Assembly: GCF_025561425.1 (NCBI RefSeq)
Contig: NZ_CP094824.1
Span: 2,542,001-2,606,000 of the forward strand
Length of the DNA: 64,000 bases
Direction: 5' to 3'
DNA from: Mammaliicoccus sciuri
Lineage (GTDB): Bacteria; Bacillota; Bacilli; Staphylococcales; Staphylococcaceae
The notes under the pieces were generated by a model. The model did not search any database. It was not told the DNA's origin and saw only the letters and a program-made list of their open reading frames with translations. Both the position numbers and the translations under genes were made by a program. Positions 50,660-52,279 of this stretch are shown here, piece after piece (within the stretch, counting starts at the first letter, position 1; every line of letters starts with the position of its first letter).

Positions 50660-51151
50660 TTATATAAACAATCGATAAATATCTTTCCACCATAAAATGA
50701 CTGTGATAATGGTAAATGCAGATGATAAGCTTAAATCCATAACACCGCCCGTTCTAAATACAATAGGTAATTTAACTGAGACATTTAAAGGATAAAATAG
50801 TTTGACCCCTCTTGGTGTTAACATATCTAAAATGATATGCGATAACATGCCCAATATAATCGAAACTAAATATGGTTCTGGTGCGGATATTGTTCTCAAA
50901 CCCCAAAATATTAAAAATAGAAATAATAATGAATGGGTAAACGTTCGGTGTCCAAAAATTAACCTAATAATAAAACTGATAGGAAATATTTTCTTACCTA
51001 GATTACTTTTGAAATGACAAATATCTGGGACCAAACTCGCTACGCCACATAAACTTACAATCGTAAATGAAGTAAAAATATCTTCTCCATAATAAATACT
51101 TAATGATGACCCGATGAATATACCGCATGAGAGATGTGTTTTTCCTGTCAT
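50660..51151 (-). CDS. YdjM/LexA-binding-type membrane metal-dependent hydrolase
   Basis: 163 residues from the ATG at 51151 (AGAGGAAAC upstream). Histidine motifs typical of the family are visible: GKTHLSCG near the start, FGHRTFTHSLL in the centre and SHIILDMLTPRGVKL later, between four membrane spans. Members are membrane-bound metal-dependent hydrolases of unclear substrate. Confidence 0.8.
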   Translation of the reverse strand: MTGKTHLSCGIFIGSSLSIYYGEDIFTSFTIVSLCGVASLVPDICHFKSNLGKKIFPISFIIRLIFGHRTFTHSLLFLFLIFWGLRTISAPEPYLVSIILGMLSHIILDMLTPRGVKLFYPLNVSVKLPIVFRTGGVMDLSLSSAFTIITVILWWKDIYRLFI

Positions 51152-51233
51152 ATTAATGTTTCCTCTTTTCAATTACTTTATTTTATTTTACCACAAAATA
51201 CCGAACAAGTATACGAACACTTTGTGACTTTAT

Positions 51234-51249
51234 AGTGATATACATCACA
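51234..51249. promoter_or_regulatory. CRP/FNR-family box, imperfect
   Basis: AGTGA-TATACA-TCACA, one base from TGTGA-N6-TCACA. It lies in the divergent region between the YdjM-like gene and the candidate small RNA. Confidence 0.5.
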
Positions 51250-51273
51250 TAATTGCAATTCAAATGACAAAAT

Positions 51274-51289
51274 TGTGAAAAGAATCACA
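51274..51289. promoter_or_regulatory. CRP/FNR-family box, perfect
   Basis: TGTGA-AAAGAA-TCACA exactly matches the palindrome bound by CRP/FNR-type regulators, including staphylococcal ArcR. It ends 12 bases before the -35 of the candidate small RNA. Confidence 0.65.
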
Positions 51290-51334
51290 TATGTATTGAT
51301 TTGTTATTAATCCCTGTTAAACTATAGTTGTAAG

Positions 51335-51423
51335 TCATATTAAACATAACCCTATACCATTGTTGAAATAACCCCCTTATTTCACAATTAAAAAACGTTC
51401 ATCTAATTCGATGAACGTTTTTT
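51335..51423 (+). ncRNA. Candidate small regulatory RNA with a CCCCC loop
   Basis: TTGTTA (51301-51306) and TATAGT (51323-51328), 16 bases apart, would start a transcript near 51335. It has no convincing reading frame, contains AACCCTATACC, and folds a 7-bp hairpin GAAATAA/TTATTTC with a CCCCC loop (51365-51383). It ends in a terminator, AACGTTCAT/ATGAACGTT plus a run of T (51392-51424). C-rich loops that pair with ribosome binding sites are typical of staphylococcal Rsa-type small RNAs. Expression is not proven. Confidence 0.55.
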
Positions 51424-51426
51424 TAT

Positions 51427-52163
51427 TTAGCTTGCTTTATTTAATTGCGTTTCTTGTTGATGATCACTTTGAGTAGATTCATTGTTGCTTGATTGTTGAG
51501 ATCGATTTTGACTTTGCCCTTCTCTATTTGTATTCTCATCTTGTTGATTCGTGTTTCGAGATGGATCAGCTTGATTATCATCCTCTTCGTACGGTTCATT
51601 ACTTTGTTCATTTGATCCTTGGTTTGAATCTTGGTTAGAATCTTCATTTGTATTTGAGTGATGTTAATCTTGATGACTTTGATTATTCTCATCATTTTCT
51701 TTAGGTAATGTACAGCCATTATCATTACACAAATAGCCATCACGAGATAAATTTTGCCAAGCTCTCGTAAATTCGATTGTATTTTCTGCTTTATCACATT
51801 CTGCTTGAGAGTTACCTTGATTTAATAAACAATTTCTTGCTACTGTATAAGCTTCTGTATCAAAGTTTTCAGTTTCATTCTGATTGTTCGGTTTAACACC
51901 ATTTACATTTTCTTCTACTGGAATTTCATCTGTAGATTGTTGATTGTTATTGTCATTTTGATCATTCTCATTATTGTTATTTGGTTTTGATTTTTCTTCT
52001 TTAGTTTTAACATCTTCACCTGTCGATTCTGAAGTTGTTTTTTCTCAGTAGTCGTTTCAGATGATTTTTCATTATCATTATGTTCATTATTCTTAGAAGT
52101 TTGGTTGTCACATGCTACTAGAAATAATAAGCAAACTGTTAAGAGACCATAAATCCATTTCAT
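51427..52163 (-). pseudogene. Decayed lipoprotein gene
   Basis: The start at 52163 (GAGGAGTG upstream) gives a lipoprotein signal peptide, MKWIYGLLTVCLLFLVAC, then an Asn/Glu/Ser-rich linker. A run of six A on the minus strand (52038-52043) has lost one base, shifting the frame. In the restored frame the protein continues with a cysteine-containing domain (AYTVARNCLLNQGNSQAECD) and meets an in-frame TAA at 51664-51666, probably once CAA, before an Asn/Gln-rich tail ending at 51427. Two lesions imply real decay. The intact family function is unknown. Confidence 0.7.
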
Positions 52164-52279
52164 AGAATCACTCCTCGGCCTTTTTGCTTTTTCTTTCTTA
52201 TTATTCATTAAAGACACTTCTTTCTTATAAAATAATTAAGCATTTAATAAAACATAAGAATATCATACATGATAAACTA

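Follow-up and report, generated by a model that had tools for sequence, protein, structure and literature searches.

A conserved C-loop small RNA gene with a putative FNR-controlled promoter in Mammaliicoccus

The locus described here is part of the 2.92-Mb single-contig genome of an M. sciuri-like Mammaliicoccus (G000), and all positions refer to the window, i.e. the whole stretch of 64,000 nucleotides that was analysed. A ydjM-like gene that points leftward and a lipoprotein gene that converges on the locus enclose two CRP/FNR-type boxes together with a promoter, a hairpin with a C-rich loop and a terminator (Table 1). Among the compared genomes, G003 is the closest relative at the RNA locus (96 %). 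An earlier reading of the sequence (hereafter the original prediction) had proposed an RNA of about 90 bases starting at 51335, preceded by a perfect and a near-perfect CRP/FNR box. Both boxes are present, as are the CCCCC hairpin and the terminator, whereas the -10 candidate TATAGT (51323-51328), a match in a simple promoter scan, is not conserved and gives way to an extended -10 (TG-T-TAAACT). Since the invariant block opens about 7 bases after this extended -10, we set the start at 51330, which corrects the size to about 95 nt.

Table 1. Features of the small RNA locus; positions are those of the window.
Feature	Position	Strand	Remarks
ydjM-like inner-membrane protein gene (PF04307)	50660..51154	-	Divergent neighbour in 108/108 family genomes
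Box 1, AGTGATATACATCACA, CRP/FNR-type, one mismatch	51234..51249	+	Only in Mammaliicoccus; GTGA/TCAC half-sites invariant in 8/8
Box 2, perfect TGTGAAAAGAATCACA, putative FNR activator site	51274..51289	+	Centre 48.5 bp upstream of the inferred start; half-sites invariant in 14/14 RNA-bearing genomes
-35-like element, TTGATT	51297..51302	+	TTG invariant in 14/14
Extended -10, TG-T-TAAACT	51315..51323	+	TAAAAT, TACAAT, TATACT or TATAAT in relatives
Small RNA, ~95 nt	51330..51424	+	Start placed from conservation and promoter
Unpaired 5' part of the RNA	51330..51358	+	TAAGTCA common to three genera; AACCCTATACC stretch only in Mammaliicoccus
Hairpin GAAATAA-CCCCC-TTATTTC, proposed Shine-Dalgarno-pairing element	51359..51388	+	Loop 51372-51376
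Intrinsic terminator, 14-bp stem and U run	51390..51424	+	Three pairs with compensatory changes, seven species

Two minor features of the surroundings were also recorded. The lipoprotein gene (minus strand, 51441-52217) is split into separate frames in this genome (ORFs 51915-52217 and 51441-51797), and an unbroken 214-aa form of it lies nearby in G023 (L029:2227-2871). A CGAACA-N6-CGAACA direct repeat (51203-51219), which is kept across Mammaliicoccus, lies over the -10 of ydjM.

The case for an RNA gene is one of conservation. Among eight Mammaliicoccus species, 56 of 57 columns are invariant from 51330 to 51386, compared with 58/143 (~41 %) in the flanking spacer (Fisher p 4e-16) and 42/164 at the third codon positions of ydjM in the same species. 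Because of this difference between block and flanks, the existence of an RNA gene is supported above chance. The hairpin and the boxes, which the original prediction needed to recur in close relatives, do so. Its claim that the RNA contains no reading frame also held: between the RNA start and the terminator, no forward ORF of at least 20 aa begins. Coding on either strand was rejected, as no frame is conserved, and a 20-aa minus-strand ORF (MFNMTYN...) was discarded since it diverges past the RNA boundary.

The segment 51335-51424 folds with -22.9 kcal/mol (z -8.4). The hairpin portion by itself reaches a z of only -2.3, so the folding energy alone is weak evidence. In the predicted fold, the CCCCC loop is unpaired with a probability of 1.0, and a C4-C5 run is found in 14/14 sequences, as would befit an RNA that pairs with Shine-Dalgarno sequences. 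The original prediction had proposed to look for covariation in the hairpin across relatives. All seven pairs of the C-loop stem are invariant across 14 sequences and, because this stem never varies, covariation is uninformative there; the terminator stem does vary yet stays paired, with compensatory changes at three pairs. The element is RNA-like and under selection. With a promoter of its own, an intrinsic terminator, no coding frame and conservation that follows the RNA boundaries, it has the features of a trans-acting small RNA gene, and we hold it to be very probably a real one, well above chance, from which the RNA would be transcribed.

For the distribution of the RNA, we used ydjM as an anchor, which was detected in 108/108 family genomes, and read its upstream region in about 25 sampled genomes of the Staphylococcus-type group g5 and in 16 genomes from g2, g3 and g4, three other genera that probably belong to the Macrococcus group. 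The RNA together with the perfect box is present in all eight Mammaliicoccus genomes, in 5/9 genomes of g2 and in the single g4 genome; both are missing from the ydjM upstream regions of g3 (0/6) and of the sampled g5 genomes. The homologues in the two further genera are syntenic but diverged, with the TAAGTCA 5' end and the GAAATAA-CCCC(C)-TTATTTC hairpin kept and a differing middle part. A whole-genome model search agrees with this picture, recovering G023, a member of the training set, at 2.9e-8 and g2 genomes outside the training set at 0.002-0.011. Two sequences upstream of Staphylococcus ydjM (L136 and L138) were considered as diverged homologues and rejected: they score 15-18 bits and have neither C loop nor box, and ydjM faces a different gene there. 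A longer model (R2) gave no convincing match over the Staphylococcus ydjM-upstream candidates. In g5, the ydjM promoters carry CGAACATACTTTCG-like sequences resembling LexA boxes, and ydjM may be an SOS gene in this group.

The genomes without the RNA also bear on which gene the boxes serve. In G008, G010, G012 and G016 (L140, L142, L144 and L148; part of g2), the perfect box and the RNA are both gone while ydjM is still there, which ties box 2 to the RNA; these four genomes have kept FNR. ydjM is dispensable for the presence of the RNA or of the RNA's box. Of the alternative left by the original prediction, that the boxes serve the YdjM-like gene, only the part concerning box 1 survives: it lies at about -40 from the TATACT of the leftward promoter on the opposite strand, and may have its role there or in support of the RNA promoter. 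This position is also what speaks for a more radical reading, in which there is no RNA gene, the whole conserved block regulates ydjM as DNA, and both boxes serve that gene. We regard that as scarcely credible, since many genomes keep ydjM without boxes or block, and since the invariance opens at the inferred start and stops at the terminator with its compensatory changes.

Boxes with one mismatch are about as frequent in the window as chance predicts (3 against an expected 2.8). Perfect boxes, on the other hand, occur at 6 sites in 2.92 Mb compared with 1 for a reversed-pattern control, and the centre of box 2 lies 48.5-49.5 bp from the inferred start in 14/14 RNA-bearing genomes. The other perfect boxes are located at rex, at cydA, beside a COX1/COX2 oxidase and at a lactate permease, while next to the sixth are a transposase-like ORF and what may be the start of an ABC transporter. 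This set is in keeping with an oxygen-respiration regulon. The boxes of rex, the COX1/COX2 oxidase, cydA and the lactate permease (L048, L049, L050 and L052) hint that Mammaliicoccus has a respiratory regulon under FNR, in which FNR possibly stands above Rex.

The candidate regulator is a protein of 230 aa, the only one in the genome above the HTH_Crp_2 cutoff. It combines cNMP-binding and Crp HTH domains with a C-terminal C219-X2-C222-X4-C227 motif and D134, i.e. the sequence features of a Bacillus-type [4Fe-4S] Fnr. The motif C219-X2-C222-X4-C227 is given for Bacillus Fnr, and in B. subtilis the cluster is liganded by C227, C230, C235 and, as fourth ligand, the aspartate D141 (PMC3520743). 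The Mammaliicoccus protein, known here from its sequence, thus shares the cysteine spacing and the conserved Asp with the Fnr proteins of B. subtilis and B. cereus (PMC3520743). Every aligned member of the family retains the cysteines and an RD motif, and a close homologue (52-100 % identity) is encoded in every RNA-bearing genome and in several without the RNA. A few g5 genomes encode distant FNR-like proteins (29-35 % identity) that keep the C-terminal cysteines (L074, L076-L079).

Since the sole CRP-family HTH protein above the cutoff bears the ligands of an FNR cluster, the likely regulator is FNR and not ArcR. The original prediction of an oxygen or energy response under ArcR or another CRP/FNR-type protein is therefore supported for the family but not for ArcR. 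An FNR-type box at fixed spacing in a genome that encodes FNR is what an FNR-regulated small RNA should show, and we consider such control quite probable. The same RNA could instead be governed by ArcR, Rex or another regulator reading the box. ArcR and Rex bind similar palindromes, and in S. aureus the motifs for ArcR and Rex overlap at Sau-19 (PMC5826253). The presence of FNR in each RNA-bearing genome and the single protein above the cutoff, with its FNR ligands, make this unlikely, although an ArcR missed by the HTH_Crp_2 model is conceivable. As the box centre at about -49 differs from the classic activator positions (-41.5 and -61.5), FNR could also act differently at this promoter, even as a repressor.

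Taken as a whole, the explanation that we favour, and consider likely, is that of an FNR-activated, trans-acting RNA whose loop blocks the ribosome-binding sites of aerobic carbon genes. At low oxygen, the cluster of FNR would be intact and FNR would occupy box 2, leading to production of the ~95-nt RNA. The CCCCC loop and the adjoining AU-rich stem would then pair with G-rich Shine-Dalgarno sequences and prevent translation. The suitability of the loop for ribosome-binding sites, already part of the original prediction, is in line with its complementarity to AAGGGGG, and blocking of such sites by the RNA appears fairly probable. The silenced genes would be those of aerobic carbon use.

Candidate targets were collected by pattern searches. 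AAGGGGG ahead of an ATG has 57 matches in the genome, and because G-rich Shine-Dalgarno sequences are that common, target lists are weak. The best candidate is yjcH-actP (a DUF485 protein and an ActP-type acetate symporter), which would place acetate uptake first among the repressed functions. In G000 and G003, its ribosome-binding site AAATAAGGGGGTTAT is complementary to 15 nt of the RNA without a mismatch; in G002, 14 of the 15 match. By a hand calculation from base composition, not a simulation, the chance of such an extension among ~50 AAGGGGG sites is ~0.01. All eight Mammaliicoccus orthologues keep the GGGGG of this site and six of the eight keep GGGGGTTA, even though the flanks have diverged. 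In the RNA-bearing g2 species the complementarity (G5) is not kept, so either the target set differs in g2 or the yjcH match is lineage-specific. AAGGGGG sites also precede fadD, citZ and acnA, which are weaker candidates, and for citZ and acnA the pairing extends little beyond the Shine-Dalgarno sequence. Taken singly, any one of these named targets must be called doubtful.

Three further candidates were dismissed. For AAATAAAGGGGTTAT, tried as a target conserved across genera, the g2 matches turned out to be codons within coding frames, among them a single long ORF (NKGVISRIL..., by eye rpoB-like); a dltC-like gene (AAGGGAG) and an LD-carboxypeptidase-like gene showed partial or less conserved pairing. 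In the strain studied, actP downstream of yjcH (L259:555-1400; G000:C1:2440154-2440999) contains one in-frame stop codon; unless this is a sequencing error, the candidate operon may have lost part of its activity in this strain.

The RNA could also be real and act in another way: it might be a sponge that titrates a second RNA, bind a protein, or affect the convergent lipoprotein mRNA in cis. Such a role would account for the near-total invariance over 57 nt including the 5' arm, which is more than a short seed requires, and the lipoprotein gene does converge on the shared terminator. What is kept between genera, however, is the loop and the TAAGTCA end, and this together with the 15-nt match to a ribosome site renders a different mode of action rather improbable.

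In comparison with known systems, the RNA resembles FnrS in its control and RoxS/RsaE in its mechanism, and neither of them by sequence, as far as control and mechanism can be read from the locus. FnrS of E. coli and Salmonella is a small RNA gene driven by FNR under anaerobic conditions (PMC8139620). FNR drive, anaerobic production and the repression of aerobic metabolism are what we propose for the Mammaliicoccus RNA as well (PMC8139620). Unlike enterobacterial FnrS, it would depend on an FNR with a Bacillus-type C-terminal cluster motif, and a comparison with the Rfam models (E up to 5) gave no FnrS match.

RoxS/RsaE pairs with Shine-Dalgarno sequences through C-rich motifs and affects TCA-cycle genes including citZ (PMC4409812). 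A C-rich unpaired region, here putatively directed at Shine-Dalgarno sequences, the predicted redox control and citZ as a candidate are points in common with this family (RF01820; PMC4409812). In contrast to the RNA presented here, RoxS/RsaE is under ResD/SrrAB and Rex and not FNR, and it has several C-rich regions rather than one loop shared across genera. Given the C-rich unpaired stretches of both RNAs and their redox control, predicted in the present case, a distant RsaE/RoxS paralogue that shares the targets of RsaE or antagonises it would be conceivable, and the Rfam RsaE model does align from end to end, with its first position exactly at 51330. The score of this alignment is low (21.1 bits, compared with a gathering threshold of 79 bits; E 0.17 and 0.09 in two scans), homologues from other genera give no match at E up to 10, and the true RsaE is encoded elsewhere (G000:C1:2182555). 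Membership in the RsaE family was rejected on these grounds, and we rate the paralogue as highly improbable.

Among staphylococcal RNAs, Sau-19 of S. aureus is the nearest precedent in control, going by its description. It is ~78 nt long, has an ArcR/Rex motif of the CRP type in its promoter and is listed without a UCCC motif (PMC5826253). The comparison, made by described control and coordinates, shows a short RNA with a CRP-type promoter motif in both cases (PMC5826253); the predicted regulator is ArcR/Rex for Sau-19 and FNR here. The Rsa-type UCCC RNAs of S. aureus are likewise short, end at a terminator of their own and expose an unpaired C-rich motif, but the Mammaliicoccus loop AACCCCCUU contains no UCCC and the RNA is absent from the ydjM locus of the sampled Staphylococcus genomes.

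In the literature searched, to which subscription journals mostly did not belong, neither this RNA nor any Gram-positive small RNA driven by FNR came up. We therefore put forward, tentatively and as a possibility, an unreported Gram-positive FNR small-RNA regulon, in which FNR activates a C-loop RNA that acts on ribosome-binding sites to silence genes of acetate, fatty-acid and TCA-cycle entry. Such a regulon would be the convergent counterpart of enterobacterial FnrS, found in FNR-carrying genera of the family and absent from the sampled Staphylococcus genomes. If true, a circuit of FNR plus small RNA would have arisen outside the enterobacteria. Part of the low-oxygen shift in Mammaliicoccus and its FNR-bearing relatives would thereby be explained, by a layer that is missing at this locus in the sampled Staphylococcus genomes. 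The locus offers an inferred start, a box, a loop and a target prediction, each of which is directly testable, and the g2 genomes with FNR and without the RNA are a natural comparison set for anaerobic physiology.
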